From Thraustochytrium sp. TN22 (lineage: Eukaryota > Sar > Bigyra > Thraustochytrida > Thraustochytriidae): a stretch of DNA of 64,000 nt. Shown in pieces: positions 11,635-53,789 of this stretch. The stretch's first letter is position 1, and each line of letters starts with the position of its first letter. The stretch is taken from NCBI GenBank assembly GCA_013306675.1, contig JABLUY010000167.1:23113-87112 (forward strand), in the 5' to 3' direction. A model generated the notes under the pieces. It was given only the letters and a program-made list of their open reading frames with translations. It did no database searches and had not been told where the DNA came from. The translations under genes and the position numbers were made by a program.

Positions 11635-11673
<39 letters not shown>

Positions 11674-12443
11674 TGTGCATGGGTTGCGAGGGCGCGCCAG
11701 GCGCCGGACGCGGCGCACCGTGATGCGGCGCGGACGGCCACGGGCGCGACGCGGGCACGGGCTTGCCCGGCGGCATGCCAGGGCGCATGTGCGGGTGGTG
11801 GTGCGCATGCGGATAGAGCGGGCCCATGGCGCCCGGGCGCATCCCATTGTGGCCGGGCAGCATGGCGTTGGGGCGGCACGGGTTGGCGACGGCGTTGGCA
11901 ATGGCGCAGGCACTCGAGGCGGAGCGCGCGAGCGGGTCGTCCTTACCGCCCATGCCGGGCTTGGCATAGGCGGCAGCGGCCGCGGCGGCATGCAGGCCAA
12001 GCGGCGGGCAGGGCGGTAGGATCTTGCCGCCGGGCAAGGAGCCACCGGTTAGCTCGCGCCACGTGGCGATGGCGTCGGCCGAGGTGCCAAGCATCTCGGC
12101 CTCCTGCTCGGTGCAGGAGAATACAACGTTACTGCGGACTGCGGCGGGCGAGCTGAGCCCGTTGCGGCGCTTGAGCACGGTCTTGGTGGTTCCATCCAGC
12201 TGCACCGTGTAGAAGCCGTGGCCACTCTTGGTGACCGTGCCGATCTGGCCCGAGTCATTGACGATGACGCGGCTGTCAACACGCAGCCAGTTCGGCACGG
12301 GAGACCGAGGCTTGCGGCGCGAGGCCGCCTTCTTGTCCGGCCCGCTCAGCGTATTGAGCTTGGCGAGTGGAGGCTTGCCAGGCATGCCGCCAGGCGCCAC
12401 GTACGGCCGCACCGGCGCCATGCCAGCGGGCCGCATCGCAGAG

Positions 12444-12475
<32 letters not shown>

Positions 12476-15307: not shown

Positions 15308-15342
<35 letters not shown>

Positions 15343-15559
15343 CCGCCACAGCCGGTCTCGGTTGCTGCTGTGCCTGCTGCTGTGCCTGCTGCTGCGCCTG
15401 CGAGGCGACGACCGGCTGCGGCGCTACCTGGCGCACGACCGCACCGGCCTTGATGGGCGTCTGGATCGCATGATTTGTCGTCGCAGGAGCCGCTGGCTTG
15501 GCCGTCGCAACCGCACTCGAGGCCGCGCTCGCAGGCGCCGCCGACGCCGCCGGTGCCGC

Positions 15560-15603
<44 letters not shown>

Positions 15604-15921
15604 TGGCCGTGGGCGCTGCGGTCGGCGCGGGCTCCGGGTCGGGCCCGAGGCAGAGGCAGCATCGGTAGCGCACGGTGGTGGTGGCGGCGGGCGCCGCGGC
15701 AGCAGGCGGCCTCGCCTGCGTGGCGCCCGGCGCGACGGGCGCGCCGCCCGCCGCGGGCGCGCCTGCCGCGGGCGGCTGCTGCTGCTGCTGCTGGAGTGCC
15801 TGCGTCAGCGCCTGCGGCTGGGTTCGCGGAGGTGGCGGCCGTGCGGCAGCGCCTCGCGGCACGAGCGTCTGCGGCTGTGCGCGCGGCGCGGCAGCTGGCA
15901 GCGGGCGCGCGGGCGCGGGCT

Positions 15922-15953
<32 letters not shown>

Positions 15954-16315
15954 TGCTGCAATTGCTGCTGCTGCTGCTGCTGCTGCTGCGGCGGCGGCGC
16001 GGGCTGCTGCTGCTGCGGCCTGGGCGCGGGCTGCTGCGCGAGCGGCTGCGGCTGACGCGGGTGGCTGTGCACGTGCGCGGGCTCGGGCTCGTGCTCACGC
16101 TCGAGGTCGTGCTTGGCGAGCGGACGCTTCTGCGCGCGCGCGAGCGCGGGCTGCGGCGGCGCGGCGGCCTGCTGCGCCGCGGCGGCGCCCGCGGCGGCGC
16201 CCGCGGCCGCGGCGGCGGCAGGAGTATCCATGCGCGTCGCGGCGGCGGCGCTGCGCTGCTGCTGCACCTGCGGCCGCAGAGGCGCTGGCGCGCGCTCCGC
16301 GCAAGGCCCCGCCAT
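10040..16315 (-). CDS. KDM6/UTX-like JmjC protein, probably demethylase-dead
   Basis: 2,091 residues from the first in-frame ATG (another ATG lies 28 codons in). The frame stays open upstream to 17251 but contains no ATG there. The first 490 residues are Gln/Ala/Pro-rich with polyQ tracts. From about nt 14795 the order of motifs follows KDM6A/UTX: a pre-JmjC segment (NITIVNGLVEATGLRNELFS), a linker, then ELKKLPECIRF, an IKETG strand, NHGPGQEEW and GTVFW. By alignment from memory, the KDM6A iron ligands H-x-E and distal His fall on Arg897, Gly899 and Phe972, so all three are lost, while the 2-oxoglutarate Lys (in IKETG) is kept. The KDM6-type zinc module is split: HCEDC (about residue 1070) and FCSECW (about 1618) are separated by some 545 low-complexity residues. 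These contain a Tudor/KOW-like patch (GQIGTVTKSGHGFYTVQLDG, nt 12180-12260). Lys-rich nuclear-signal-like runs lie near the C-terminus. A chromatin scaffold role is inferred. Confidence 0.75.
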
Positions 16316-19300
16316 GCGCAGCGCGCGCTGCTGCCGCGGCGCTGCCTGCTCCGGCGCGCCGCGCTGGGCGCCCGCTGCGGGGCGGCCTCTCGCGGCGCCG
16401 CGCGCTCGGCCAGCCCGGCGTCGCCGCGCGCGCGGGGAGGGATTCGAGGATTGACGACAGGAGCTCGAGTGGAGCGCTGGATTGGATGTTTGTTTGAATG
16501 CGCGAATGCGTGGATGCGCGCGCACTGCGCAGCCGCGCCGCGCCGCGCCGAGCTGCGCTGCGCCGCGCCGGCCGCCGCGCTGCCGCCGCGCCGCGGGCTG
16601 CGCCGGGGCCGCGCGCTCGCCTGCGCCGCGTCTGCCGCGGCGGCCGCCGCCCCGCCGCCTCCGCCGCGCCCGCGCGCCGCGAGCCGAGCGCAACGCCTTC
16701 TCGCTATCCGCACCTTGCCCGACGAGGAAGAAGCGCGCGGCCGCGAGGCGCCGCCCGCGAGAGAGAGCGCGAGCGCGCGAGAAAGAAAGCAGGCCTGGCC
16801 GCGCGCCGAGCCGCGCCGCCGCGCCGCGCCGGGTCCAGCGGGCGCCGGGCCTCTGCCGGAGCCGAGGCCGGCCGGCCGCGAGCCCGCGCCGAGCCGCGCT
16901 GGCGCCTGGCCTCGGTCGGCCGCGCGCTGCTGATGCCTGCCTGCCTGCCTGCCTGCCTGCCTGGCCGCCCCCCCCCTGCTCGCGCCCGCCGGGCCGCTTA
17001 AGGTGGCGCCGCGCCTGGCCGCGCCGCGACGCCGGGGCTAAGATATGGGCGAGATGAGGGATGCGTGGAGAAGCTTCTTGCCAGGCTTGCCAGGCTTGCC
17101 AGGCTCGGCCTTGGCTCGCGCGGCGAGCGAGCGAGCGAGCGAGCGAGCGAGGCAAGTCGCCACGCAACTCGACGCAAGCCTCGCGCCGGCAAGTCGCCAC
17201 GCGGCCTGGCAGTGGCAAGGGTCGCCGGATCCACTGCTGCAGGACGGCCACCGGCCAGCGACGGAGGTCAGTCAGTCAGTCAGGCTGTCTGTCAGCGGCG
17301 CCTGCGCTGCGCTTCCGGCGCAGGGAAGAAGCACTGCCGCTGTCTGCCAGAGCGCGACGAACCTCTCGAGGCTCCGGAGTCCGGATTGCGCCTCGCAGGC
17401 CCCCACTCCCCGTCTCGCTCCCTCGCTGCTGGCCAGCGTCGCGATGGGCTACTCTGATCAGGCTCGGCACTGCACCGACCGTGACGGCGGCGGCACGTAC
17501 GTACGGTTACAGTGGCGCTCGCCGTCCGATGATGGTTCGCTCCTCGCTCAGCTGAAGCGCCTACTACATCATCCTCAGCCACCGGGTGACGCAGCGCTGC
17601 GAGCCCGCGCCGCGAACCTGACGTCAAGCAAGCCTTGCAAGGCATGGCGTGCCACGCCACGCCACGCCACGCCCAGCAAGCAACGCGGCGCGGCGCGGCG
17701 CAACGCGGGCTAGCTGAGCGCTGCTGCACTCGGTGTCGGAGGCAGGCAGCCTGGGCATGGAAGACGCGACTCGGTGCACAAGGTAGGCCTGGCAGGCTGG
17801 CTGGTTGGGGCGCCACGGCGCCCGGCCACCCACCGCCCCCTGAACAGACTTGCACAAGCGCAGCAAGACGCAGCCTGGCTGGTAGTTCTCGCCGCCACAT
17901 GCCGTCACATCACATCACATCACATCACATCACATGGTAAGGCAAGGCCAAGATTGCAAGCAATGCGTCCAAACCAACACAAGCAGTGGACCGAGGCCAG
18001 GACCGCGGCGGCGGCGGGGATATTTCTGAATGCCGCGGCCCGACTTTGCTGCGCGCAAACTGCTCGTCCTCTGGGACTCGCACGAGGCACACTTGCGCGC
18101 CGTTGCACGCCACGCCGACGCTGCCAGCTGTGCTCGCCTCCAAGCCCAACGATCAAGCGGTGGCGAGCTCGCGAGCTGCTCGGGCAGGCGGGCAGGCAGG
18201 CAGGCACGCACGCACGCATGCACGTAGGCACGCACGCCGCAGGCCAGCTCGCTGAGCTCGGGCTGTGCTTTGCCTTGCTTGCGCAGCTCTCCGAGCGTCA
18301 GCCTGCGCAGCTCTCTTGGCCTGGGAAAGATTCGAGGCAAGGCCAGCCGCACGCTTCGCTAGGACCCACGTGCCGGAAACGCTAGGCCCCGAGCCGCTGC
18401 CCGCGCGCGGTAAGGTGGCTCTGCCGCGCACTCCGCATTGCATGCGCTCCGCTGCTCATTGCTGCGAGACAGGCCCCCGCTGTCCGCCGCCGCGCCAGGC
18501 GCACGAGCAGGCGAGGAGCAGCCGCGCGGCCAGGCGGCCAGAGCCGGGCCCGCGCCGCAGGCCGTGCGCGCGAGCGCCAGGGCCGACGCAGCGAGCAGAG
18601 AGCAGCGCACGGCGGGCGTCGCGGGCGTCAGGCTGGCGCCGCGGCGAGGTTCTCGGGCGCGAGCTGACCTGGATCGACTCGAGGCGACCCACCGCCGATG
18701 ACGTAGCTGGTGCACACTGGTGTGCAGTGACTGCAGGCACTGCAAAGCCTGAGCCTTCAAGTTGCCATGACTCGGACCATGGAGGCCTCAGGCTCAGCCG
18801 CCGCGCTGCCAGCACTGCGCGCTGCACTGCTACCAGGTCAGTCAGGGTCAGCTGAGCTCTCAGCTCAGCTGGTTGCCCGCCGGCGGCGCGGCGCTCTGGC
18901 AGGCCCTGCGGAGACTTGACCGATGGCGGCACTCCAACTAACTTACCTGGCAGGCGAGCGAGTGCCACTGCCAGGCAGCGAGGGGCGCTCTTCCCGCGCC
19001 GCCGCGAGACTGAACCACCGCCGACTCCGAGCGAGCGACGGCGAGCGACTCGGAGCGGACTCGGACCTGGAGCGATCACGAGCGAGCGAGCGAGCGAGCG
19101 AGCTAGGCGCATCAAATTGCACATGGTCGCCACTGCGGTGCGGGTCTGATGCCTTCTGCGGGCTGGGGCGCTCAGGGACACAGCGTGCCACGCAACGCCT
19201 GTGTTGCGGCCGATGCTTTGCTTTGCTTGCTTGCCGGACTTGGCGCGTCTTGCCTGAGCCGCTTGGCGTGGCGTGGCAGGCGAGCACGCGGCGCTTGCTG

Positions 19301-22623: not shown

Positions 22624-25600
22624 CTAACTTAGCACGATCCCGTCGTCTTGAGGCGTGATGCTGTGCTTGGTGAGCGCTCCCGGATTGACATCGGCTTTGG
22701 TCCGGGCAGCTTGTGGCGCGCATGTGCGCGGGGCGATCGACGCTCGAGGTCCGACGCGGCCATTGCAAAGGCAAACAGCACCAGGCTGCAGCAACGATTG
22801 CGGCCCGATCCGCGAGGGGCCGAGCTCGAAGGCGCCATTCGTGAACTGGTGCGCCGTAAAGTAGACGCTCGTGTCCACGATCGCACCCTCGCCCGCCGTC
22901 AAGAGCTGGTGCTCGCGGAGCCTGCTCGAGTTGAGCACAGCGCCCTGGCCCACGCGAGCCCCCATGAAGCGCGCGTGCATGTTGTACAGCGGGCTCGCGT
23001 GGAGGACAGGAAGCAGAAGGTCCTCAAAGAAACCTGTAAAGTTCTGGTACATGCAGTACATGCTGCCTCGCGTAGGCACCGCGCGGAGCTCATGCGACAC
23101 GCCGAGAACGCCGAGCGCCACCACACGCTGCGGCACCATGGCCAGCCCGAGCATCGCGAGCCACAGGCTGACGGCCACCAACACAATGGCCGCATCGCGC
23201 TGCACCCCGGCATCGTAGAGCACAAAGGAGGCGAACTCGTAGGCCGGGATCAGCGAGACCACCGCGAGGACCAGCACAGCACCTCGCAGAAGGAGCAAGA
23301 GAACCTCTTCGCCGACGCCCCAGAGTCCGGGCGGGTCCGCGTCCTCGGCAGCCAGCGCAAAGGTAGCGCCGCGGAACTTGCGGTGGCCCGACGGCAGCAC
23401 CTCGTCCCTGTCGAGCGCGCTGAGCATAGCCAGGCTCGAGCGCGGCCGGAGCTCGCTCCCAAACCCGAGCGTCGCAAACACGCCGGCCTCGGACTGCGCA
23501 CCAATGCTCACCCGCGCGAGCTGGCCGTCCGATTCGGTCTCCACGAAGATGAGACTGGCCATCGACTTGTCGCCCATGCAGATGAGGTCCGCGTTGGACG
23601 GCGAGACCCAGCACACGGTCGTCGTGAAGGTATCGCGACCGATCGAGGCGCCCAGCGCGCGCAGGTACCACAGCACGACGCGCGTCTCCTCGAGCCACGT
23701 CAGCCAGGTGGCGTACACCAGACCGAAGAGGTAGTCCGCGGCCCAGTGGCGCAGGTCACGCAGCGCACCTGGCCAGACCTCACCCGGACGTAAACGTCCC
23801 ACGAGGACCCACTTGGCGGCGACCGCAACGAGGGACATGACAAAGCCCGTCACGAAGAAGGACGAGGCCCAGAACGCAAGCTCGGCGTAGCGGAAGCCCG
23901 ACGGGTAGCCGCAAGCGTCCCAGATGAGCAGGTTCACCACGCTCGCCGCGAAGTAGATCTGCAAGATCATGCACATGATGACGAGCTTGGCGATGAGATC
24001 GACGACGCTGCTGCTCGCTCGAGACGCAGACACGACGCCCACGCCGTCCGCAGCGTCCACCGCCTCGCCTTCACTGGCCACACGCAGCGGCTCCAGCTGC
24101 GCGCCATCGGCGAGCGAGGCGCCAAGCATCACCACGGCCCCGGCCCGGACCTGGCTCCCGGCACCGAGACGCACGCGCCGGAAGCGGAGCGTGCGCTCTC
24201 GGGCGTCAAAGGCGCGGCAAACGACGCTGCCTTTCACGATCGCGTCTGCGCCGATCGACACGAGGTCCAGGTCCCGCAGCAGCGTCTTGAGCTTGGCGCT
24301 GAGCGCGACGCGCCCGCCCATGAGGATGTAGAACACGTTGAGCAGCGGCGTGTCGACGAGCCAGCGGCCCACCGCATTCTCCCACATGTGCATGAGGCGG
24401 TCGACGAGCCACCAGCGCAAGTACGGCAGCGAGCCGATGGCGACCTCCCGGGGCGCCAAGCGCCAGAGCAGCAGCCACTTGGTCGCGAGAACGAGCAGGG
24501 AGAAGCTGACCATCCAGACCGGGATGACCAGGGGCACGAGCACGCCCATCATGGACGCGGTGTCGGTGACCCGGTAATAGACCCAGGGCTCGCCCAGGTC
24601 GCTCTCGAAGCGCACCCAGTACCCAAAGTGGTAGGCGGGCAGAATGGCAGCGGTCATCTCAAAGAAGATGAGCCAGACACCGAGAAACTGCAGCAGCCCG
24701 GCCAGGCCAGTGGGCAAAGCATGCCCGCCGATGAGGGGAAGCTTCTCGAGAACTTGAAACGAAGCTGCGCTCTTGGCTCCGATCGCCTCGACGATGGCAC
24801 GGACGCTGCGGTGCGTAGCGATGAAGTCCGCCTCGAGGGCGTCTGCATCACTCAGTAGCAATTCCACGAGCGCGTTCACCTCGACCATGGCGAGCGAGCT
24901 CATGCCGGCGTCGAAGAGGTCGTCGTCCGCCTCAAGAGCAGGGCACCCGAGGCTTTGCCGCGCCCTTGTCAGTAGCCACTCGATGCGCGCGTCAAGACCC
25001 TCGGGCATCTCCTCGTCCTCCGTCTCGTCGCTCGTCGTGACCGCCTGGGCCGCGCCGGCCGGGGCCGCGCCGGCCTGCGCGACCACGGCGAGCTGGTCCT
25101 GCAAGAAGGCGTCGCGCGCGGCACGACGACGGATCTTGCCACTCGTTGTCTTGGGCACGGTGCGCGGCCTGATGAGCACCACCTTGGCTGGAGAGAAGCC
25201 ATGATCGCACGTCACTGCTGCACGGACGGCCTCCGCGACCTGCACAGCGTTCGGCAGCTTGGCGTCACGCACCTCCGCCACCACCACCACGTCCTCGGTG
25301 TGCTCAAGGCAAAAGACAGCACAGCACCCGGGGCGAATGGCCGCGCTGCAGGCGTCGACGGTGGACTCCACGTCCTGCGGGAAGATATTGCGCCCGCGCA
25401 CGATGAACATGTCCTTGATGCGGCCGCACACGAAGACCTCTCCCTGCAGCAAAAAGCCCATGTCCCCCGTGCGCAAATACCGCCTTCCGTCCGGCACAGC
25501 CAGCTCTGCATTGAGTACTTGAGCCGACAGATCGGGTCGCCGCAGGTAAGCGTCCACCTTGGAAGGGCCGGCAGCCCAAATCTCGCCCACGCAGCCCTCT

Positions 25601-26781
25601 TCAACCGGCTCCCGTGAGTCCGGGTGCACGCAGAGCAGCGTGATGCCCGGGCCCGACCGCCCGTTGCTGACGAGCGTGAGACCGCCGCTCTGCTCTTCCA
25701 TCTCCTCTTCCACACGCCTTCCTGGCTGAAGCTCGAAGCCGGCGCGCAGATGGACGGCGCGTGGGCCCTTGGGGGGCTGGTGCGTCGAGAGGAGCATCAC
25801 GCTCTCCGCCAGCCCATACGTGGGGTCCATATACTCCATGCGCACGCCCTGCGCAGCGAATGCGTCCACGAAGTGGCGCAGCGTCTCCATGCGCACCGGC
25901 TCGGCGCCAGGCGAATAGCGCGTGCAGGTGCTGAGATCTAGGGTCGCGCGTTTGGCAGGCGGAACCTTGCGCACCACCAGCTCCAACGCGAAGCTCGGAC
26001 CGCAAGTCATGGTCGCGCGGTACTTGGAGATGGTCTCGAGCCAGAGCACCGGATTGCGCAAGAATGCTGCTGGCGAGAACTGCACGGTCGACGCGCCCGC
26101 GGTGATGGCGCTCAGTGTGCACCCAACGAGACCCATGTCGTGGTAAAACGGCACCCAGCTCACGCCTCGAGTCGCCTCATGGATGCCCATTGCCGTGCAG
26201 ATGCTGAACATGTTCGCGTCAAGGTTGCCGTGCGTCACACAGACGCCTTTCGGGTCGCCTGTGCTGCCGCTCGAGAACTGCACAAATGCGATTGTCTCTG
26301 GGTCCGGCACGTGATGCAGGCCTACGCTTGCAGAAGGCTTGGCTTTGCACACATCGTGCCATTTGAGTCCCGCTGGGAACTTGCTCGCCCCGATAAGGAG
26401 GCGGCGAGCGCGCAGGAGAGGCGTGTGCGAAAGCACGTGCGTGAGCTGCGACACCTCGACCGCCTTGGCGAGCTTGGCGAGTCCCGGCTTGGCGTTGTTC
26501 GGATCCGGCGGATACACTGGCACGGCCACGAAGCCGCCCAGAAGGCAGGCCATCATGGCCAAGATGAAGTCGGTCCCCGGGAAGAAGACCAGCAGCACCA
26601 TGTCGCCACGCCTCACGCCCCAGGACCGCTCCATGATGTTCACAATTCCCAGCGCCCCGGCGACGAGCCCTCGACGAGTCAGCACCGACGCCTCTTTGCC
26701 CTTGTCATCCAGCCAGGTGAAGAGCCTTTTGTCTGGCTGCTCATGCGCCAGCCGCACGGCGTTCTCGCAGAAGGTCCCCAT
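22624..26781 (-). CDS. Acyl-AMP ligase, carrier protein and Pls-like membrane tail, copy 1
   Basis: 1,385 residues from the ATG that aligns with copy 3's start (MGTFCENAV versus MAKSICENAV); an upstream TTG was rejected. Residues 1-580 are a fatty-acyl-AMP-ligase-type adenylation domain: QFSSGSTGDPKG (168-179), WVPFYHDMGL, PTYGLAES, YLRTGDMGF, GRIKDMFIVRGRN and KTTSGKIRRR. A carrier domain follows (DDLFDAGMSSLAMVE) with the phosphopantetheine serine at Ser629. The C-terminal 690 or so residues hold three repeats of two membrane helices plus a hexapeptide/left-handed-beta-helix-like soluble domain. That layout, six membrane segments around three tandem soluble domains, is that of the bacterial epsilon-poly-L-lysine synthetase tail (NRPS terminal domain). 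Inferred job: activate a fatty acid, load it on the carrier and transfer it at a membrane to an unknown acceptor. Its C-terminal half is nearly identical to copy 2. Confidence 0.9.
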   Translation of the reverse strand: MGTFCENAVRLAHEQPDKRLFTWLDDKGKEASVLTRRGLVAGALGIVNIMERSWGVRRGDMVLLVFFPGTDFILAMMACLLGGFVAVPVYPPDPNNAKPGLAKLAKAVEVSQLTHVLSHTPLLRARRLLIGASKFPAGLKWHDVCKAKPSASVGLHHVPDPETIAFVQFSSGSTGDPKGVCVTHGNLDANMFSICTAMGIHEATRGVSWVPFYHDMGLVGCTLSAITAGASTVQFSPAAFLRNPVLWLETISKYRATMTCGPSFALELVVRKVPPAKRATLDLSTCTRYSPGAEPVRMETLRHFVDAFAAQGVRMEYMDPTYGLAESVMLLSTHQPPKGPRAVHLRAGFELQPGRRVEEEMEEQSGGLTLVSNGRSGPGITLLCVHPDSREPVEEGCVGEIWAAGPSKVDAYLRRPDLSAQVLNAELAVPDGRRYLRTGDMGFLLQGEVFVCGRIKDMFIVRGRNIFPQDVESTVDACSAAIRPGCCAVFCLEHTEDVVVVAEVRDAKLPNAVQVAEAVRAAVTCDHGFSPAKVVLIRPRTVPKTTSGKIRRRAARDAFLQDQLAVVAQAGAAPAGAAQAVTTSDETEDEEMPEGLDARIEWLLTRARQSLGCPALEADDDLFDAGMSSLAMVEVNALVELLLSDADALEADFIATHRSVRAIVEAIGAKSAASFQVLEKLPLIGGHALPTGLAGLLQFLGVWLIFFEMTAAILPAYHFGYWVRFESDLGEPWVYYRVTDTASMMGVLVPLVIPVWMVSFSLLVLATKWLLLWRLAPREVAIGSLPYLRWWLVDRLMHMWENAVGRWLVDTPLLNVFYILMGGRVALSAKLKTLLRDLDLVSIGADAIVKGSVVCRAFDARERTLRFRRVRLGAGSQVRAGAVVMLGASLADGAQLEPLRVASEGEAVDAADGVGVVSASRASSSVVDLIAKLVIMCMILQIYFAASVVNLLIWDACGYPSGFRYAELAFWASSFFVTGFVMSLVAVAAKWVLVGRLRPGEVWPGALRDLRHWAADYLFGLVYATWLTWLEETRVVLWYLRALGASIGRDTFTTTVCWVSPSNADLICMGDKSMASLIFVETESDGQLARVSIGAQSEAGVFATLGFGSELRPRSSLAMLSALDRDEVLPSGHRKFRGATFALAAEDADPPGLWGVGEEVLLLLLRGAVLVLAVVSLIPAYEFASFVLYDAGVQRDAAIVLVAVSLWLAMLGLAMVPQRVVALGVLGVSHELRAVPTRGSMYCMYQNFTGFFEDLLLPVLHASPLYNMHARFMGARVGQGAVLNSSRLREHQLLTAGEGAIVDTSVYFTAHQFTNGAFELGPSRIGPQSLLQPGAVCLCNGRVGPRASIAPRTCAPQAARTKADVNPGALTKHSITPQDDGIVLS
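22700..24690 (-). repeat. Conversion-like tract shared with copy 2 (left member)
   Basis: This stretch matches 27454-29444 at about 99%, with a constant offset of 4,754 bases and no indels; I counted about 17 substitutions by eye, most of them silent. It covers the membrane/beta-helix tail of the protein and stops abruptly at the carrier-to-membrane junction, beyond which the two genes are clearly diverged. Confidence 0.9.
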
Positions 26782-27359
26782 AATGATGTTGCAGTGCAGC
26801 GCGCGCAGTGCGGCCTTTCGCAAGCCCTTCTCGCCAACGCCGCACAAGACCTGCCTGCCGCCGAGGGGTGGGGGCGGGGGCGCGAGGGAGGACGTTAGGG
26901 TCGCCGTAGCGCGGCCCGCGGCCTTCGCGTTAGGCTCTCAGCGCTCTCACGCTCTCTGTGTTGTAGTTTTGCGAGACGCGCGCAACCACTCGCGCGCCGC
27001 ACGCGCCGCACAGCCTGCGCGCCCTTGCTGGCGCCCGCTGCGCCCCCGCTCGCCCGTCACGGCCCGTGTCCTTCTCGCGGCGCGCACGTGGCACTGGCGG
27101 TGCCGCGATGCGCTGCGATGCGCCGCGATGCGCCGCGGAGGTGCCTTTCCTGTCCAGAGTAATTCAATTATGGTTTGATTACCTCCCGAGTCCTGTCACT
27201 CTGCCCCCCCCATTGGTGGGCCGGCGGGGGCGGGCGGGGCCCCTGGGCCTCGTCCAGCCAAGTGACCTACTAGTACACCGGGTACTACGGGCCGGTAGTA
27301 AGTTACACCCCGGCGGCCCCACTACTGCAGCCTGCAGGGAGTGCAGGCGCCCCCAGATC
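26782..27359. other. Intergenic region between acyl-ligase copies 1 and 2
   Basis: About 580 bases of promoter and 3' flank. It includes a G-rich tract (ggggtgggggcgggggcg around 26865-26882), a small AT-rich island (gtaattcaattatggtttga, about 27159-27178) and C-rich runs. No gene is visible. Confidence 0.5.
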
Positions 27360-30300
27360 TCATACCTGCGCGAGCTCGTCAGCTTGGGGTACCTTGCTCA
27401 GGCTGTGCTTGGTGAGCGCTTCCGAATTGCCAGTGATGATGACATCGGCTTCAGCCCGGGCAGCTTGTGGCGCGCACGTGCGCGGGGCGATCGACGCTCG
27501 AGGTCCGACGCGGCCATGGCAAAGGCAAACAGCACCAGGCTGCAGCAACGATTGCGGCCCGATCCGCGAGGGGCCGAGCTCGAAGGCGCCATTCGTGAAC
27601 TGGTGCGCCGTAAAGTAAACGCTCGTGTCCACGATCGCACCCTCGCCCGCCGTTAAGAGCTGGTGCTCGCGGAGCCTGCTCGAGTTGAGCACGGCGCCCT
27701 GGCCCACGCGAGCCCCCATGAAGCGCGCGTGCATGTTGTACAGCGGGCTCGCATGGAGGACAGGAAGCAGAAGGTCTTCAAAGAAACCTGTAAAGTTCTG
27801 GTACATGCAGTACATGCTGCCTCGCGTAGGCACCGCGCGGAGCTCATGCGACACGCCGAGAACGCCGAGCGCCACCACACGCTGCGGCACCATGGCCAGC
27901 CCGAGCATCGCGAGCCACAGGCTGACGGCCACCAACACAATGGCCGCATCGCGCTGCATCCCGGCATCGTAGAGCACAAAGGAGGCGAACTCGTAGGCCG
28001 GGATCAGCGAGACCACCGCGAGGACCAGCACAGCACCTCGCAGAAGGAGCAAGAGAACCTCTTCGCCGACGCCCCAGAGTCCGGGCGGGTCCGCGTCCTC
28101 GGCAGCCAGCGCAAAGGTAGCGCCGCGGAACTTGCGGTGGCCCGACGGCAGCACCTCGTCCCTGTCGAGCGCGCTGAGCATAGCCAGGCTCGAGCGCGGC
28201 CGGAGCTCGCTCCCAAACCCGAGCGTCGCAAACACGCCGGCCTCGGACTGCGCACCAATGCTCACCCGCGCGAGCTGGCCGTCCGATTCGGTCTCCACGA
28301 AGATGAGACTGGCCATTGACTTGTCGCCCATGCAGATGAGGTCCGCGTTGGACGGCGAGACCCAGCACACGGTCGTCGTGAAGGTATCGCGACCGATCGA
28401 GGCGCCCAGCGCGCGCAGGTACCACAGCACAACGCGCGTCTCCTCGAGCCACGTCAGCCAGGTGGCGTACACCAGACCGAAGAGGTAGTCCGCGGCCCAG
28501 TGGCGCAGGTCACGCAGCGCACCTGGCCAGACCTCACCCGGACGTAAACGTCCCACGAGGACCCACTTGGCGGCGACCGCAACGAGGGACATGACAAAGC
28601 CCGTCACGAAGAAGGACGAGGCCCAGAACGCAAGCTCGGCGTAGCGGAAGCCCGACGGGTAGCCGCAAGCGTCCCAGATGAGCAGGTTCACCACGCTCGC
28701 CGCGAAGTAGATCTGCAAGATCATGCACATGATGGCGAGCTTGGCGATGAGATCGACGACGCTGCTGCTCGCTCGAGACGCAGACACGACGCCCACGCCG
28801 TCCGCAGCGTCCACCGCCTCGCCTTCACTGGCCACACGCAGCGGCTCCAGCTGCGCGCCATCGGCGAGCGAGGCGCCCAGCATCACCACGGCCCCGGCCC
28901 GGACCTGGCTCCCGGCACCGAGACGCACGCGCCGGAAGCGGAGCGTGCGCTCTCGGGCGTCAAAGGCGCGGCAAACGACGCTGCCTTTCACGATCGCGTC
29001 TGCGCCGATCGACACGAGGTCCAGGTCCCGCAGCAGCGTCTTGAGCTTGGCGCTGAGCGCGACGCGCCCGCCCATGAGGATGTAGAACACGTTGAGCAGC
29101 GGCGTGTCGACGAGCCAGCGGCCCACCGCATTCTCCCACATGTGCATGAGGCGGTCGACGAGCCACCAGCGCAAGTACGGCAGCGAGCCGATGGCGACCT
29201 CCCGGGGCGCCAAGCGCCAGAGCAGCAGCCACTTGGTCGCGAGAACGAGCAGGGAGAAGCTGACCATCCAGACCGGGATGACCAGGGGCACGAGCACGCC
29301 CATCATGGACGCGGTGTCAGTGACCCGGTAGTAGACCCAGGGCTCACCCAGGTCGCTCTCGAAGCGCACCCAGTACCCAAAGTGGTAGGCGGGCAGAATG
29401 GCAGCGGTCATCTCGAAGAAGATGAGCCAGACACCAAGAAACTGTAAAAAGGTTGCGACCAATGCAGGCAGCTCGCAGCCTGAGGCACGCGGCACCGGGT
29501 CAAGTGTTGGATTTCCGCCGCGTCTCGTCTCGATGGCCTCCGCGAGGAGGCGCACCGTACGGTGCGTGGCCAAGAAGTCTGACTCGAGCGCGTTCTCGGC
29601 AGCGCCAAGAAGGGAGTCCACATGTGCTGCTACCTCAACCATGGCGAGCGAGCTCATGCCGGCGTCGAAGAGGTCGTCGTCCTCGCCGAGCGCGGCATTG
29701 CCAAGACTCTGGCGCGCCTGGACGAGGAGCCACCGTCGCCGAGCCTCGGGGTCATCCTCAATGTGTTTGATCGCAGCGACCTTGCTCGTGCTGGCACCGC
29801 GGCCGCCGCACTGGGCCACAACAGCAAGCCCACCACGCATAAAGGCGTCGCGCGTCTCGCGGCGGCGGATCTTGCCACTCGTCGTCTTGGGAATCGACCG
29901 CGGTCTGATGAGCAGAACCGCGAAAGGCGAGAAACCATGGTCTCGCGCCACAGCGCCGCGCACCGTGTCTGCGAGCTTCGACGCGTCCTTGAGCGAGGGA
30001 TCGCGGACCTCAGCCACAACGACGACATCCTCAGAGTGCTCCAGACAGAAGGCAGCGCAGCAGCCGGGACGAATGGATGCACTGCAAGCATCGACGCTGG
30101 CCTCCACATCCTGAGGGAAAACATTGCGCCCGCGTACAATGAGCATGTCTTTGAGGCGGCCACAAACGAAGACTTCGCCCTGGTGCACAAAGCCCATGTC
30201 ACCGGTGCGCAAATACGTCTGGCCGTCCGGCTCCGCGAGCTGCGCGTTGAGCTGAGTCGCGGAAAGATCTGGCCGGCTCATGTAGGCGCAAACCTTGGAA

Positions 30301-31673
30301 GGGCCCGCCACCCACAGCTCGCCAACGTGACCCGGCGGGACCGCCTCGCGCGTGTCTGGGTGGACCACGAGTACCGTGGTGCCTGGCGCCGGGACGCCGT
30401 TGCCCACGAGGACCTGGCCTTGGTCGGCATCGTCGTTCTCGGTGGCCTCTATCGCGGTCCCCGCCTCACGCGTGTACGAGGTTCGCAACCGAACTGTGAT
30501 GGGCGCTGCCAGGGGCGCTCGCTGCTGCGTGACGAGCAGCACGTTCTCCGCGATGCCGTAGACGGGACACAGGGAGCCTGCAAGGACGCCTTGCTCCCTG
30601 AAGGTCTCTCCAAACGTCGCGAGGGTCTGCGGACGCACCGGCTCGGCGCCGTTGAGCCAGCGCGTGCACCGGCGAAGATCAAGCTTCGCTCGCACCTCCG
30701 CAGGCGTCTTGCGTGCCACGAGCTCGTAGGCAAAGTTCGGCGCCGTGGTATGTACGGCGCCATACGTGGAGATGGCCTCAAGCCAGAGCCAAGGGCGCCG
30801 CAAGAAGGTGCTTGGTGCCATGAGGACCATCAAGCCCCCCGCCTGCACGTTGGCCAAGATGCAGCCGATGAGACCCATGTCATGGTAGAAAGGCACCCAC
30901 GCGACTCCGACCGAGACCTCTGTCCAGGCCAAAGCGCCACGGATGCTCTCCAGGTTCGCGCTCAGATTACCATGTGTCACACAGACGCCTTTGGGATCGC
31001 CCGTGCTGCCGCTGGAGAACTGCACAAAGGCGAGACTCTCAGGCGCTGGAGCTGCCGGCAAGGCGAGATCGCCGGCTGCAATCCCGGCCTTGCTCACATT
31101 GTGCCACTCAAGGCCCGCTGGGAACCTCTTCGTACCGATGACGAGGCGCCTGGCGCGCAGGAAGCTGGTGTGCGAGAGCACATGTGTGAGCCGCGTAAGC
31201 TCGGCAGCCTTGGCGAGCTTGACGAGTCCCGCCTGGGCGTTGTTTGGGTCTGGCGGGTACACCGGCACGGCGACAAAACCTCCCAGTAGGCAAGCGACCA
31301 TGGCGACGATAAAGTCAAGCCCGGGGAAGAAGACCAGCAGCACTTTGTCGCCCCGTCGGACCCCCCATGACCGCTCCATGACCTTGACGACGCCAAGCGC
31401 GCTGGCGACGAGTCCCCGGCGCGTCAGCACTCCCGCCTCTTCGCCCTTGTCATTCAGCCAGGTGAAGAGCGCCTTGTCCGGCTGCTCGTGTGCGAGCCGC
31501 GCGGCGTTTTCGCCGAAGCCGCACGGGGCACGAGGGTGGTCGCAGCGCTGGCCGCGGCAGTCCTTCGTCCTGCTCTCCGCGCGCTCGCGCTGCGTGCCGC
31601 GGTCATCGTTTTGCGTTGGCGAGACTGCCGCCACGCCTGTGGCCTGCCTGATGTAGGGCGCCGCACCAGTCAT
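27360..31673 (-). CDS. Acyl-AMP ligase, carrier protein and Pls-like membrane tail, copy 2
   Basis: 1,437 residues from the first ATG. The domain order is as in copy 1: adenylation motifs (QFSSGSTGDPKG near 220, WVPFYHDMGL, YLRTGDMGF, KTTSGKIRRR), a carrier with Ser675 (GMSSL), then six membrane helices and three beta-helix-like domains. The N-terminus is odd: the paralogues start just before CENAV, whereas here the matching GFGENAARLAHEQPD is preceded by about 60 unrelated basic residues. Either the true start is different, perhaps through an upstream intron, or this copy has an N-terminal extension that could be a targeting sequence. The adenylation half differs from copy 1 at many sites, so a different acyl substrate is possible, while the tail is almost the same. 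The stop is TGA, and the last few residues differ from copy 1. Confidence 0.87.
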   Translation of the reverse strand: MTGAAPYIRQATGVAAVSPTQNDDRGTQRERAESRTKDCRGQRCDHPRAPCGFGENAARLAHEQPDKALFTWLNDKGEEAGVLTRRGLVASALGVVKVMERSWGVRRGDKVLLVFFPGLDFIVAMVACLLGGFVAVPVYPPDPNNAQAGLVKLAKAAELTRLTHVLSHTSFLRARRLVIGTKRFPAGLEWHNVSKAGIAAGDLALPAAPAPESLAFVQFSSGSTGDPKGVCVTHGNLSANLESIRGALAWTEVSVGVAWVPFYHDMGLIGCILANVQAGGLMVLMAPSTFLRRPWLWLEAISTYGAVHTTAPNFAYELVARKTPAEVRAKLDLRRCTRWLNGAEPVRPQTLATFGETFREQGVLAGSLCPVYGIAENVLLVTQQRAPLAAPITVRLRTSYTREAGTAIEATENDDADQGQVLVGNGVPAPGTTVLVVHPDTREAVPPGHVGELWVAGPSKVCAYMSRPDLSATQLNAQLAEPDGQTYLRTGDMGFVHQGEVFVCGRLKDMLIVRGRNVFPQDVEASVDACSASIRPGCCAAFCLEHSEDVVVVAEVRDPSLKDASKLADTVRGAVARDHGFSPFAVLLIRPRSIPKTTSGKIRRRETRDAFMRGGLAVVAQCGGRGASTSKVAAIKHIEDDPEARRRWLLVQARQSLGNAALGEDDDLFDAGMSSLAMVEVAAHVDSLLGAAENALESDFLATHRTVRLLAEAIETRRGGNPTLDPVPRASGCELPALVATFLQFLGVWLIFFEMTAAILPAYHFGYWVRFESDLGEPWVYYRVTDTASMMGVLVPLVIPVWMVSFSLLVLATKWLLLWRLAPREVAIGSLPYLRWWLVDRLMHMWENAVGRWLVDTPLLNVFYILMGGRVALSAKLKTLLRDLDLVSIGADAIVKGSVVCRAFDARERTLRFRRVRLGAGSQVRAGAVVMLGASLADGAQLEPLRVASEGEAVDAADGVGVVSASRASSSVVDLIAKLAIMCMILQIYFAASVVNLLIWDACGYPSGFRYAELAFWASSFFVTGFVMSLVAVAAKWVLVGRLRPGEVWPGALRDLRHWAADYLFGLVYATWLTWLEETRVVLWYLRALGASIGRDTFTTTVCWVSPSNADLICMGDKSMASLIFVETESDGQLARVSIGAQSEAGVFATLGFGSELRPRSSLAMLSALDRDEVLPSGHRKFRGATFALAAEDADPPGLWGVGEEVLLLLLRGAVLVLAVVSLIPAYEFASFVLYDAGMQRDAAIVLVAVSLWLAMLGLAMVPQRVVALGVLGVSHELRAVPTRGSMYCMYQNFTGFFEDLLLPVLHASPLYNMHARFMGARVGQGAVLNSSRLREHQLLTAGEGAIVDTSVYFTAHQFTNGAFELGPSRIGPQSLLQPGAVCLCHGRVGPRASIAPRTCAPQAARAEADVIITGNSEALTKHSLSKVPQADELAQV
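27454..29444 (-). repeat. Conversion-like tract shared with copy 1 (right member)
   Basis: Partner of 22700-24690; see that entry for identity. Only about three residues differ in the encoded protein over the tract (for example CLCHGRVG here versus CLCNGRVG, and DAGMQRD versus DAGVQRD). Confidence 0.9.
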
Positions 31674-32330
31674 GAGGTGTTGCCTCAGAGAGGCCTTGGG
31701 CAGGTTCACGGCGACCTCCGCGCAGACGCCCGCTTCCGGCGTCCGCTCGTCTCGTCGTGAGCGCCGCTGCAGCGCCGTCGCGGCAGTGCCGCCGCGGCGG
31801 CGGCCTGACTCACGTCAGTGATTGGGACTTCTTGTTTCCAGTTTGCCTGCTTGCAAGCCTTGCACGTGCTGCAGAGCTGGCCGCTGGGATCCTTCGCTGC
31901 CTTGCAAGCTGGCGACCCATCACCACTGGCGTCAATGAATTCTGCACTGCTGCGAGCTCGCAGCGCCCGGGCAGCCTCGCTGCGGCTGCCTGCTGCCACA
32001 GGTCGCCATGCCGGGCCGCGCGACGCGTCGCGATCGCGCACCATCGCATCGTTCGCGCAGAAATGACCGTCCCTGGCTTTCGCGGCGCAGTAGGCCTACA
32101 GTGGAATGAATCACGTCGGCTAATTCTAATTAGGCAGGTAGGCAAAGGCCTAACGTAAAAGTTAGCTCAGGCTCGCCGAGCGTGCCACGACTGCTGCCCG
32201 CCTGGGGCAAAGGTTTGGACGCGCAAAAAGTCATGGAGGACGATTTATTATTTTTTAATCTCTGGGAGAGCCCGACTCAGAGCCTGACAGTGTGAGAGTG
32301 ACTCGAACCGTGACTGGTATCTGACTCTCA
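31674..32330. other. Intergenic region between acyl-ligase copies 2 and 3
   Basis: About 660 bases containing the 5' side of copy 2 and the 3' flank of the interrupted copy 3. An AT-rich patch (tttattattttttaatctc, about 32245-32263) close to the copy 3 stop could belong to its 3' untranslated region. No coding frame or RNA gene was recognised. Confidence 0.5.
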
Positions 32331-35300
32331 TCAGAGCGGCACTGGCAAGTCATCCGCTGGCTCGATGGAGTGTCGACCACCCTTGTCCTGATCAGCTTGG
32401 GCGAGCTGAGGAGCGCATGTGCGCGAGGCGACGGTGGCTCGAGACGCGACGCGGCCGTTGCAAAGGCAGACTGCTCCGGGCTGCAGCAAGGCCTGAGCCC
32501 CCAGACGCGAAGGGCCGAGCTCAAAACCGCCGTTGGTGAACTGGTGGGCCGCGAGAAAGGCGCCAGCGTCCACGATGGCGCCTTCACCCACGCTCAAGAG
32601 CTGATGCTCACGCACAAAGCTCGAGTACAGCACCGCTCCGCGCCCAATGCGAGCACCCATGAAGCGCGCGAAGGCGTTGTACATGAAGGTGCCGTGGAGC
32701 GCCGGCAGCAGGAGCTTCTCGAGGACTGCCGTAAACAGCTGGTACGAGCAGTACATGCTGGGACGCGTCGGGATCTCGTGCAAGTCCCGCCGGAGCCCAA
32801 GGACGACCAGCGCGAGCAGGCGCTGCGCAACCGCAAGTCCGAGCAGGGCGAGCCAGAAGCTCACGGCGAGCAGGATGATGGCGACGTTGCGGTCCAGGCC
32901 AGCGTCGAAGAGCGCGAAGTGCGCAAACTCGTACGCGGGAATCAGGGAGGCGACCACGAGCACGAGAAAGACCGCGCGAAAGAGGAGGAGCGCGGCCTCT
33001 TCCGCCGCACCCCACGCCGGCCGCAGCGCGAGCGCGCTCTCAGACCTGGCAAGGGGGAAGGTGGCGCCATAGAACTTGCGATGGCCGGACGGCAGGACCT
33101 CGCCCTCGGCCAGCGTGCTGAGCGAGGCGAGACTCGATCCTGGCTGCATTGTGCCGCCGAACGAGATTACGGAGAAGAGGCCGATCTCGCAGCGATCGGC
33201 AATGCCCACCCTGTAGCGCTGAGCGCGAGCTTCGGTCTCCACAAAGATGAGGCCGGCCATCGAGCCCTCGCCCATGCTGATCATGTCTGCGTTCGAGGGC
33301 GATATCCACATGGCGTTCGAGATGAAGCTGAAGCGGCCCAGTGTGGCGCCCAGCGCGCGCAGGTAGGCCAGCATGGACCGGGACTCCTCGAAGTACACAA
33401 TCCAGGTCGCAAACAGGAGCGACCACAGGTAGTCCGCAGCCCAGTGGCGCAGACTGCGCAGAAGGCTAGGCGCGGCGGGTCCGGCCCGCAGACGACCGAT
33501 GAGAACCCACTTGAGCCCCACTGCGACAAAGGACATGCAGCATGCTGTGACGAAGTAGGAGGATGTCCAGAACGCCAGCTCCGTGTAGCGGAAGCCCGAC
33601 GGGTAGCCACAGGCGTCCCAGATGGCCAGGTTCACCACGCTTGCCGCAAAATAGAGCTCCAGAATCGCGCACATGAAGACAAGCTTGGTCACGAAGGCGC
33701 ACGCGATGCTGGCGGGGGATGCCACAGCGACCTCGTCTGCTCCACCACTCTCAACGGTCTCGCCCTCGCCAGCCACGCGCAGCGGCTCCAGCTGGGCGTG
33801 GCTGCTGAGCGAGGCGCCCAACAGAGCCATGGCGCCGACGCGAACATGGGCGCCAGCGCCGATGCGAAGGCGCCGAAAGCGCAACGTACGCGCCTTGGCG
33901 TCGAAGGCGCGGCTCACGAGCTCGCCCTTGATAACGGCGCCACTGTCGATGGCGACCAGGTCCACGTCCCGCAGGAGCACCTTGAGCCTGGCCGAAAACG
34001 CGATGCTGCCGCCCAAGAAAATGTAGAATACGTTCTACAGCGGCGTGTCGACAAGCCAGCGCCCGACGCAAATCTCCCACATGTGCAATAGACGGTCCAC
34101 GAACCACCATCGCAGATAGTGCATCGAGCTCAACTCGATCTCGCGCGGTGTCCAGCGGCCGACGACCACCCACTTGGTGACGATGACGAGCGCCGAGAAG
34201 CTCATCAGCCACAAGGGGATGACGAGGGGCACCAGGAGGCCGAACATCGTGAGCGAGTCGGTGACGCGGTAGTAGACCCAGGGCGTGCCCAGGCCACTCT
34301 GGAAGCGCACCCAGTACCCAAAGTGGTACGCCGGCAGAATGGCAGCGGCCATCTCGATGAAGATGAGCCAGACGCCAAGAAACTGGAGCAGGCCAACCAG
34401 AGGCGCGGGCAGCGCGCGGCTGCCCACGCGCGGAAGGTCATCGAGCTGCTGCTTTGACCCGACACGCCGCGCCTCGACAGCCTGCACGATGTCACGAGCG
34501 CTGCGGTTCGAGGCGAGAAATTCCGGCTCCAGCGGCATGCCGTCGCCGAGCATGGTCTCCACCAAAGCACTGATTTCTACCATGGCGAGAGAACTCATGC
34601 CGGCGTCGAAAAGGTCATCGTCGGGGCCCAGCTTCGGCATGTCCAGAGCCTCGCTCGCCTTGCCAAGCAGCCAGTCCAGACGCGCCTCAGGGGTGTCGCC
34701 CACATCATCGTCCAGGTTCGCTGCCGTGTGCTTGGGCGCAGGCCCGCTGCCGCACTGCGCGACCACGGCGAGCTGGCCCTGTAAGTAGGCATCGCGCGTC
34801 GCGCGGCGTCGGATCTTGCCGCTCGTCGTCTTGGGCACGGTGCGCGGCTTGATGAGGACCACGTCGAAAGGCAAGAACCCGTGGTCCCTCGCCACGGCGC
34901 CTCGCACCGTGTGGGCCAGTCCCACCGCATCCTTCATCTTGGCGTTGCGCACCTCTGCCACCACGACCACGTCCTCGGAATGGCCGAGTGCAAAGGCGGC
35001 ACAGCAGCCCGGCCGTATGTCGGCACTGCAGAGGTCGACGCTCAACTCCACGTTCTGCGGGAAGACGTTGTGTCCGCGGACGATGAACATGTCCTTGATG
35101 CGCCCGCACACGAAGACCTCGCTGTGCAGCAGGAAGCCCATGTCGCCGGTGCGAAGGTACCGCTTTCCGTCTGGCTCGGCGAGCTCCGTGTTGAGCACCT
35201 CGGCAGACAGCTCCGGTCTGCTCAGGTACGTGGACGTCTTGGATGGGCCTGTGACCCAGATTTCCCCAAGGTGGCCTTCCGGGACCGCCTCGCGCGAATC

Positions 35301-36482
35301 CGGGTGCACGATGAGCACGATGTTGCCCGGGGTCGGCGGGCCATTGCTTAGTAGAGTCTGGCCGTCTTCGTCCGGACCCGCCAACTCGATCTCGGTGCCG
35401 GCTTCGCGTGCGTACGATGTGCGCAGGCGCACCTGGATAGACTCAGAGCCTGAGACGTGCGAGGAGACCAGAATGACGTTCTCTGCGAGGCCATATCCCG
35501 GGCAGATGAGCTCCGCGCGGACGCCCTGGTCCTTGAAGGTTGTCACGAACGCAGACACGGACTCCACGCGCACCGGCTCGGCGCCACTCAGCCACTGCCT
35601 GCAGCAGCTCAAGTCCAGCTTGTCACGCACCTGCGGCGGCGTCTTCCTGGCCGTGAGCTCGTAGGCGAAGTTCGGTCCGCACGTGAGCTCGGCGCGGTAC
35701 TCGTGGATGGCCTGGAGCCAGAGCCAAGGCTTGCGCAAAAACGCAAGCGGGGACATGAGCACAGAGAGGCCGCCTGAGTTGATCATGAAGAGGATGCAGC
35801 AGACGAGGCCCAGATCGTGGTAAAAGGGCACCCACGATACGCCCCTCGGGGCCCAACGCTGCTCCGAAGGCGGCTGACTCCGGACGCCGGTCTCGTAGAT
35901 GGTCGCCAGGTTGGCGTTCAGGTTGGCGTGCGTGACGCAGATGCCCTTGGGGTCGCCCGTGCTGCCGCTGGAGAACTGCACAAAGGCGAGGTCTTCCGGC
36001 GCGGGTACCCGAGGCGGGTCGATGCGGACCGCCGGCTTGGCCTTGCGTACGTCGTGCCACGTGAGGCCCGCGGGAAACTTGCTCGTGCCGATGATCAGGC
36101 GCCTGACGCGTAAGAAGACCGTGTGCGACAAGACCGTCGTGATCTGCGCGACCTCGATGACCTTGGCCAACTTCGCGATGCCCGGCCTGGGGTTGCTCGG
36201 GTCCGGTGGAAAAACGGGCACGGCCACGAAGCCGCCCAGGAGGCAAGCCATCATGGCCATGATGAAGTCGGTTCCGGGAAAGAAGAGCAGAAGCACCTTG
36301 TCACCAGGATGCACGCCCCAGCTCCGCTCCATGTGGTGCGCGAGACCAAGGGCGCCGGCAAGGAGCTCGTGCCGCGTCAGCGTCGCCGCCTCCTTGCCCT
36401 TGTCGTCCAGCCAGATGAATTGCTTGCGATCAGGCTCCTCCCTCGCGAACTGCACAGCATTCTCGCAGATGCTTTTCGCCAT
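32331..36482 (-). pseudogene. Acyl-AMP ligase, carrier and membrane tail, copy 3, split by an in-frame TAG
   Basis: A single 1,384-codon frame with one internal stop. It starts at an ATG (MAKSICENAV) and has all adenylation motifs (QFSSGSTGDPKG, WVPFYHDLGL, YLRTGDMGF, KTTSGKIRRR) and the carrier serine (GMSSL, Ser631). It runs into the first beta-helix region, where codon 816 (34035-34037) is TAG right after WLVDTPL. Copies 1 and 2 have CTC (Leu) there. Reading continues in the same frame for 567 more codons with every membrane and beta-helix segment matching its paralogues, then ends in TGA. No other lesion is visible. Options are a very young pseudogene, a truncated but useful ligase-carrier protein, stop-codon readthrough, or a base-call error. 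This copy is diverged from 1 and 2 along its whole length, so it did not take part in their recent sequence exchange. Confidence 0.85.
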
Positions 36483-48124: not shown

Positions 48125-48269
48125 TGCGAACTCCATGCGTGTGATCGTATAGCGGTCGCCCGAAGCTACTAGTGCTGCTCGCACGCTGCGAGCCTCGGCG
48201 CGGGCTGAATTGATTGACTCAAGCTGCGAGTATCGAATCATTTGTTTCTGTCACCTCAAGTCTTGGGGG

Positions 48270-48422
48270 ATGCCGCGCCTCAACCGCGAGGAGCTCCTGC
48301 GCCGCCGCTCGCCGCGCGCCGACGGCCCCGCGCGCAAGCTCTGCCTCGCGCGGCTGGTTGGCGTCTGTCGCCGCGCCGCCAGCGAGGCGAGGCCTCCCCG
48401 CATCCTAACTACTTCCCGTTAG
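48270..48422 (+). other. Leader ORF upstream of Cys/His-repeat gene B
   Basis: A 50-codon ATG frame (MPRLNREELLRRRSPRADGP...) matching the leader ORF of unit A over its first 43 or so residues, then cut short by the 17-base insertion. The same uncertainties apply. Confidence 0.3.
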
Positions 48423-48628
48423 GTTGTCAGATAGCGCCAAGCAGGGCGTGGAAAAACCCGCCGCCGCGATCAAGCCGCGAGCAAAGCGCGATCGAGGCGG
48501 CGCGCGGCGAGCGGAGTCGTCGCGAGCGGAGCGCCGTCCGGCGGCACGGCGCTGCGCGGCGCGGCGGGGACAGTGGCCGCCGGCCCGAGCGCGCCCGCGA
48601 GCGAGCGAGCGAGGCGGAGGAGGGAGGC

Positions 48629-50441: not shown

Positions 50442-50982
50442 TCAAGCCAGTTCGAAGCGAGCACGCTGGACTGGCGCCATGTCGACAATGCCGGAGGTGA
50501 AGATGTTGGCGCGAAAGTAGGCGTCCAAATCGCGACCTTGAGCCTTGGGCTGGGGCTCAAAGCCCACCAGGTCGGGGTGCACGAGCTTCGCGCGTGCCTC
50601 CCGCAATATACGCCGAGCCTCGTCCGAGGCACGTCGGCGCGCGGCGAGCTCTATGGCCCGCATTTCCGCGGCCAAGGCCGGGGACTGTCGCAACACCTCG
50701 TGATACTCGCGAGTACATGCGTCCTGGTTCTCCCCGCGCAGCGCCACGTCCTCCCCCGTGAGTCTCGCGAGCCGCGCGTACTGAAGCCTTGCGAGCGCAT
50801 CGAGCGTGCAGAGTCCGGCCGGCACACGGTTCAAAAGCACCTGAAAGCGCCGCATGCGAAGCTCCTCGGGTTGCACCGGCGGCACGGAGCTGAACAGCTC
50901 GAGCGTCGCTTGGCGCGCCTCCACCACTAGATCTAGCACGCGTGTACCGGTAATCTCGCGTGCATCCGGATCCGTGTCCACA

Positions 50983-51021
<39 letters not shown>

Positions 51022-53757: not shown

Positions 53758-53789
<32 letters not shown>

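Follow-up and report, generated by a model that had tools for sequence, protein, structure and literature searches.

Three genes of the thraustochytrid Thraustochytrium sp. TN22, here named W1, W2 and W3, each combine a fatty acyl-AMP ligase (FAAL) domain and a carrier domain with a membrane tail that is, by profile comparison, homologous to the tails of the bacterial epsilon-poly-L-lysine and delta-poly-L-ornithine synthetases, Pls and PosA. They are arranged in tandem on the minus strand, at positions 22624-36482 of a stretch of 64,000 nucleotides (hereafter the window; assembly GCA_013306675.1, contig JABLUY010000167.1, positions 23,113 to 87,112 of the forward strand), and belong to a family of 19 genes in this genome. 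The layout fits a FAAL replacing the amino-acid domain of a Pls-type enzyme. The proteins are probably self-contained membrane acyltransferases, independent of coenzyme A (CoA), which swap loading modules while their tails are shared.

An earlier note on this DNA had described a minus-strand trio with FAAL-style adenylation motifs and a carrier serine, and this was borne out by Pfam, NCBIfam and a check of the motifs. All three genes match the Pfam families AMP-binding (E from 3e-45 to 3e-55) and AMP-dom_DIP2-like (PF23024, E from 2e-10 to 2e-12), and the fatty acyl-AMP ligase models of NCBIfam (E down to 9e-99). PP-binding is also found in all three (E from 2e-7 to 3e-4, barely over the gathering score in W1 and W2), and each contains the carrier motif with its serine. 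Among proteins of known structure, the top matches are two FAAL-type chains: 7r7f ('polyketide synthase') at E 6e-96, and 3kxw ('Saframycin Mx1 synthetase B') at 2e-85.

A tree was constructed from 18 host domains, 16 bacterial FAALs, ten adenylation (A) domains of Pls and one acyl-CoA-ligase-like domain (locus L156, described below). In this tree, a quick search with no bootstrap and with long branches flagged, the host FAALs form a single group (Shimodaira-Hasegawa-like approximate likelihood ratio test, SH-aLRT, 100) apart from the Pls A domains, and this group sits inside a fork with eight of the 16 bacterial FAALs (SH-aLRT 98). Since the tree has one CoA-ligase-like domain, the split between FAALs and fatty acyl-CoA ligases rests mainly on the model and PDB rankings. 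An insertion of about 40 residues, which we take to be the published FAAL-specific insertion, is shared by the host FAALs and the bacterial ones; the aligned Pls A domains and the L156 domain have a gap at this place. The Pls A-domain site AFDxSxE reads FYHDMGL or FYHDLGL in the five host domains aligned. In PosA, Asp217 and Glu221 bind the two amines of the substrate (available part of PMC10522769); their equivalents are missing from these five domains. The marks of FAALs are described as a FAAL-specific helix, a blocked CoA pocket and a proline-lined alternative pocket (PMC8460268, in part). Judged by sequence, the activating domain clusters with the FAALs rather than with CoA ligases or with A domains for amino acids. 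The latter two assignments were rejected on the NCBIfam models, the tree and the alignment of the insertion and the site, and the FAAL-type adenylation domain proposed earlier was thus confirmed by models, PDB ranking and tree, with no grouping among CoA ligases.

The last ~700 residues of W1, W2 and W3 have no Pfam match at E<=0.01. TIGR02353, the model of the Pls/PosA terminal domain, scores 162 bits in W1 (E 2e-47), 160 in W2 and 116 in the tail piece 32334-34016 of W3. Taken alone, this match is unspecific, because at E<=0.001 the model also has matches in 13 of the 14 control genomes, in one of them over its cut-off. The homology claim is therefore carried by the profile-profile comparison, in which 17 host tails were aligned with five Pls/PosA tails from bacterial plasmids over 571 columns (hhalign, probability 100, E 2.2e-43). 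By this measure the host tail is homologous to the bacterial Pls/PosA tails. The tails of W1 and W3 contain six hydrophobic stretches arranged as three pairs, according to a hydropathy scan that is rough, as it also flags one stretch in the FAAL domain of W1 and two in that of W3. In a joint alignment, a histidine of the third soluble unit is present in all 19 host tails and in 61 of 63 prokaryotic tails (L031 and L234 do not cover the column). A like histidine motif is seen in the first unit in none of the 19 host and four of the 63 prokaryotic tails, and in the second unit in none and two, respectively. In a tree the host tails form a separate long branch apart from the 63 prokaryotic ones.

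Several observations weigh against a Pls-type transfer enzyme. The TIGR02353 scores are far under the curated cut-off of 423 bits. Pfam Hexapep is absent at E<=0.01 from the window genes, and appears under its cut-off in three of five long family members scanned. The structure predicted for the W1 tail, from an alignment with three window rows, has a mean predicted local distance difference test score (pLDDT) of 32. In the published model of PosA, three left-handed beta-helices pack into one domain that sits on six bent membrane helices (PMC10522769, in part), and a beta-helical fold of the host tail would be borrowed from that model. Thus the Pls-type tail of the earlier note is upheld by the profile match and the profile-profile homology, at scores far below the cut-off, and of its layout of helix pairs plus hexapeptide-type domains the three pairs were recovered in the hydropathy scan, whereas the hexapeptide signal is weak.

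W3 is, moreover, interrupted by a stop codon, which is absent from the earlier note. A frameshift or an intron was rejected, as the TAG lies in frame. Downstream of it the frame remains open and conserved through to the end, and two pairwise comparisons of the W3 tail gave ratios of nonsynonymous to synonymous substitution rates (dN/dS) of 0.23 and 0.28. The TAG is therefore probably a recent nonsense mutation, a sequencing error, or a site of read-through.

The search of the host genome (37.9 Mb, 453 contigs) with TIGR02353 gave 52 matches, none of them over the curated cut-off, which after removal of two weak ones (C441 and C199) resolve to 19 genes on 14 contigs. The FAAL motifs HD[ML]G and FSSGSTGDPKG are present in all 19 genes. 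The carrier serine is kept in 18 of 18 readable copies; C401b, in which 663 of 1411 codons read N, was left out of this count. Nine genes are short and consist of FAAL, carrier and tail (W1, W2, W3, C16b, C401a, C401b, C116, C55 and C453). The other ten have a helix-like insert of ~380 residues between the FAAL and the carrier, which is longer and apparently doubled in C114 and C359; seven inserts aligned gave no convincing Pfam or PDB match. In 12 comparisons within the family dN/dS is 0.16-0.33 (simple counting, with several dS values near saturation), and the gene pairs tested are under purifying selection. Phosphopantetheinyl transferase (PPTase, PF01648) has three matches in the host genome. 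A PPTase match at C442:184400-184720 lies within an open frame of 4221 residues, possibly a fused fatty-acid synthase (FAS) like that of thraustochytrids. Chlorophyll-binding proteins have no matches in this genome, and the host is thus probably no alga.

Comparison of the paralogs revealed two clear candidate module swaps at the carrier/tail border. At third codon positions W1 and W2 are identical in 51% of cases over the FAAL domain (n=564) and in 98% over the tail (n=648), with dS of 1.18 and 0.04, respectively. The switch occurs at codons 720-730, where the first membrane helix lies, and similarity is gradually lost in the final ~25 codons; the flanks (500-600 bases) do not match. We read the tail identity as a probable result of gene conversion or module exchange. 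Similarly, C359 combines a FAAL and inserts like those of C114 (93% of third positions in the FAAL) with a tail like that of C11 (97%), and the change point is again around the carrier/tail border. The median difference between FAAL and tail over 171 gene pairs is five percentage points. The nearest relative by identity differs between FAAL and tail in 14 of the 19 genes, by margins that are mostly small, and we regard just W1/W2 and C114/C359/C11 as swaps. Chimeric assembly could in principle produce the patterns of W1/W2 and C359.

We infer the following reaction. The FAAL domain would form a fatty acyl-AMP, and the acyl chain would be handed to the phosphopantetheine arm of the adjoining carrier; these two steps are suggested by what is known of the FAAL family (PMC8460268 and PMC11837247, both in part). 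By analogy with PosA, the tail probably folds into three left-handed beta-helices that pack as a pseudo-trimer within one chain, carried by six membrane helices. With the histidine of the third unit as a base, an amine or hydroxyl acceptor may attack the thioester, and an acyl amide or ester would be released at the membrane. Such transfer by the tail is suggested by the tail homology and the conserved histidine. The window neighbour genes give no hint of the acceptor. The earlier idea of a FAAL swapped into a Pls-type layout thus fits the domain, tree and homology data, to which acyl transfer by the tail is added as a conjecture. More tentatively, and with slightly less confidence than an even balance would call for, the genes may constitute a novel type of eukaryotic lipid-making enzyme family that unites CoA-free fatty-acid activation and Pls-type transfer in one polypeptide and is diversified by swapping of whole loading modules (FAAL, optional helical domain, carrier) via gene conversion at the carrier/tail border.

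One alternative is a tail that has no catalytic activity and serves as a membrane platform, with the FAAL and carrier feeding a polyketide synthase (PKS), a FAS or an unlinked acyltransferase. The absence of the histidine motif from two of the three soluble units and the weak hexapeptide signature are in line with this, and didomains of FAAL and acyl carrier protein (ACP) that supply other enzymes are known (PMC11837247, in part). However, prokaryotic Pls/PosA tails, too, mainly have the third-unit motif (61 of 63, against four in unit 1 and two in unit 2), and active enzymes are known in that family (PMC10522769, in part). The histidine is retained in 19 of 19 host copies and the tail dN/dS is 0.16-0.33 in six pairs, and we regard a dead tail as unlikely.

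It is also possible to imagine a polymerase, in which the FAAL activates a bifunctional acid (a fatty acid with a hydroxy or amino group), from which the tail builds a polyester or polyamide. Polymerisation is the only characterised activity found for the tail family (in the accessible part of PMC10522769), and the host proteins retain the whole three-unit tail with the single histidine. On the other hand, FAALs as described load starter acids (PMC11837247, in part), nothing points to a bifunctional substrate, and in the tree the host tails stand on a long branch separate from the 63 prokaryotic ones. This makes a polymerase rather unlikely.

An ordinary Pls/PosA-type poly-amino-acid (CHPA) synthetase in a eukaryote would agree with the tail homology, and such synthetases are reported in fungi, Amoebozoa, Metazoa and 'Alveota' (PMC10522769, in part), but with the FAAL motifs in all 19 genes, the FAAL placement of 18 of them in the tree, the loss of the Asp217/Glu221 equivalents in the five domains aligned and the tail scores under the cut-off it is very improbable.

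Finally, bacterial contamination or an assembly artefact was considered, since bacterial relatives exist for both halves of the proteins and the near-identical tails of W1 and W2 could in principle come from a chimeric assembly. The 19 genes are spread over 14 contigs. Within the window, which the neighbour annotation covers, the neighbours match RING finger, rhomboid, tubulin-tyrosine ligase, WRKY19-type zinc-finger arrays, a TMEM260-like mannosyltransferase and EGF. Ribosomal protein S4e is present in the host genome; among the control genomes this family occurs in four archaeal and no bacterial ones. The G+C content of the W1-W3 region falls in the range of the window (63-75% in 2-kb steps). 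For comparison, sequence reads from two strains of thraustochytrids have a mean G+C content of 45% (PMC6050695). Contamination was rejected because of the 14 contigs, the eukaryotic neighbours and S4e, and we consider it or an artefact practically negligible. The host is a eukaryote and the family genes are not contamination, as the earlier note had assumed in placing them in a eukaryotic setting. Two plus-strand frames at 46628-50281 of the window have 14 and 11 WRKY19-type zinc-finger matches. Open frames of 2403 and 1527 residues, at 10043-17251 and 50445-55025 (both on the minus strand), have no Pfam match at E<=0.001.

The fused layout was sought in prokaryotes in three data sets. Of the plasmid records, 1833 match W1, and none has a place covering 80% of it. 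A genome contig collection, described as covering 84,980 species, was scanned with the full-length profile and host-typical FAAL patterns, by which divergent FAALs would be missed. Among the best 80 of 171 relatives there are 15 clear FAALs (>150 bits), none with a convincing tail; one of them, L040, runs to the end of its contig. L049, L038 and L113 gave tail scores that are marginal, at 15-26 bits. According to Pfam, the FAAL proteins L036, L037 and L038 continue into domains of PKS or non-ribosomal peptide synthetases (NRPS), ketosynthase or condensation.

The tail profile was run on 1,820 genomes of five phyla; mostly the best two or three candidates per genome were scored, so that copies may be missed. 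It matched 23 of 367 genomes in the phylum of a Polyangia bacterium, three of 377 in that of a Sericytochromatia bacterium, 24 of 382 in that of a Planctomycetota bacterium, 26 of 398 in that of Grimontia and 18 of 296 in that of Streptomyces. Loci were taken from 81 of the 94 matching genomes (the 13 left out have open frames of 156-367 residues) and, together with six plasmid loci, yielded the 63 long (>=1000 residues) prokaryotic tail proteins. L049, a FAAL-NRPS protein with a tail score of 15.5 bits, was set aside. The A domain is of amino-acid type in 61 of the 63, unrecognisable in L031, and FadD7-like, of the acyl-CoA-ligase kind, in L156; a FAAL on a Pls-type tail was found in none of the 63. 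L156:961-5505 (minus strand; genome G326, phylum of a Polyangia bacterium) encodes the FadD7-like domain, a carrier and a Pls-type tail. To judge from these domains, the joining of an acyl-ligase-like domain to a Pls-type tail has happened at least one further time, as an independent case.

A bacterial source for both halves is plausible, as had been suggested, and no bacterial donor with the fused FAAL-carrier-tail layout was found in the plasmids, the contig collection or the genomes of five phyla. A viral origin was rejected: nine pattern stretches found in viral contigs with the tail profile were not confirmed, and the full-length profile gave two matches of ~200 bases with 30% identity, within the FAAL part.

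Some other loci are related to the tail or its partners. Stand-alone proteins of ~210-430 residues that match single Pls-type tail units were observed in the Polyangia and Planctomycetota phyla (L159-L163 and L242-L249). At ~1596-5905 of L157 (genome G113) a minus-strand FAAL gene adjoins a plus-strand gene for a hexapeptide protein akin to a single unit of the tail. Two loci from the Streptomyces phylum (L279 and L280) appear to carry a split Pls, with tail and A domain on adjacent or overlapping frames and the tail frame upstream.

Table 1. Features of the window genes (window positions, unless residues are given) and insert-bearing loci of the host genome.
Feature	Position	Strand	Remarks
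Gene W1	22627-26847	-	open frame of 1407 residues, no internal stop; likely start ATG at residue 23
W1 FAAL domain	25078-26769	-	residues 27-590
W1 carrier domain (PP-binding)	24781-24981	-	phosphopantetheine serine S650 at 24898-24900
W1 Pls-type membrane tail	22627-24741	-	residues 703-1407; conserved His H1333 (third soluble unit) at 22849-22851
W1 tail hydrophobic stretches	residues 711-736, 769-787, 957-975, 998-1016, 1182-1200, 1220-1238	-	hydropathy
W1 tail segment near-identical to W2 tail	22687-24690	-	residues 720-1387; left junction at first membrane helix
Gene W2	27363-31709	-	open frame of 1449 residues; start uncertain, ATG at residue 13 or missed upstream exon
W2 FAAL domain	29814-31511	-	Pfam/NCBIfam matches, tree
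W2 carrier domain	29532-29705	-	serine S686 at 29652-29654
W2 Pls-type membrane tail	27363-29483	-	conserved His H1369 at 27603-27605
Gene W3	32334-36482	-	single frame of 1383 codons broken by in-frame TAG; ATG start 36480-36482
W3 FAAL domain	34758-36473	-	Pfam/NCBIfam matches, tree
W3 carrier domain	34476-34676	-	serine S630 at 34593-34595
W3 Pls-type membrane tail	32334-34415	-	His H1313 at 32544-32546
W3 in-frame TAG	34035-34037	-	between first membrane-helix pair and first soluble unit
Insert-bearing host loci	L009, L011, L014, L015, L016, L017, L019, L020, L021, L024		

Both halves of these proteins are known already, and their union is the new element, as far as the literature searched shows. 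To our knowledge, Pls-type tails are known only as makers of poly-amino acids. No description of a FAAL joined to such a tail was found among the literature matches listed, and the union is not described in the available parts of PMC8460268, PMC11837247, PMC10522769, PMC8506220 and PMC8070225. If the tail does move fatty acyl chains, it would be a general carrier-dependent membrane acyltransferase, and the chemistry of Pls-type tails could be approached with a simpler substrate. Acyl amides or esters could then be made in eukaryotes by a route that does not depend on CoA, and the family would show how modules are swapped in nature between loading units and a unit for release.

Among known systems, the FAAL-ACP didomains and the FAAL-led PKS and NRPS (7r7f, L036, L037, L038) are alike in having a FAAL with a DIP2-like C-terminal domain followed by a carrier. 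In L036, L037 and L038 a ketosynthase or condensation domain follows the carrier, whereas in the host proteins its place is taken by the membrane Pls-type tail. The eukaryotic FAAL-like protein DIP2 shares the FAAL-like fold and the PF23024 matches. However, it consists of a DMAP1-binding domain and two FAAL-like domains (PMC8460268, in part), while the host proteins have one FAAL, a carrier and the membrane tail, and the window genes have no match to DMAP1 in Pfam at E<=0.01. L156 is similar in its acyl-activating domain, carrier and Pls-type tail with the histidine, but its domain is of CoA-ligase type with AMP-binding_C, not a FAAL, and its long-branched tail is placed neither with the host tails nor with the remaining prokaryotic ones. 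Pls and PosA themselves (TIGR02353) have the same order of a carrier followed by three helix pairs and three soluble units, homology along the tail and the third-unit histidine motif. The host proteins differ from them in the FAAL in place of the diamino-acid A domain, the missing Asp and Glu residues, the long branch of the tail and the score under the cut-off. As they have neither a score over the TIGR02353 cut-off nor an A domain with Asp217 and Glu221, we do not place the host family in Pls/PosA.

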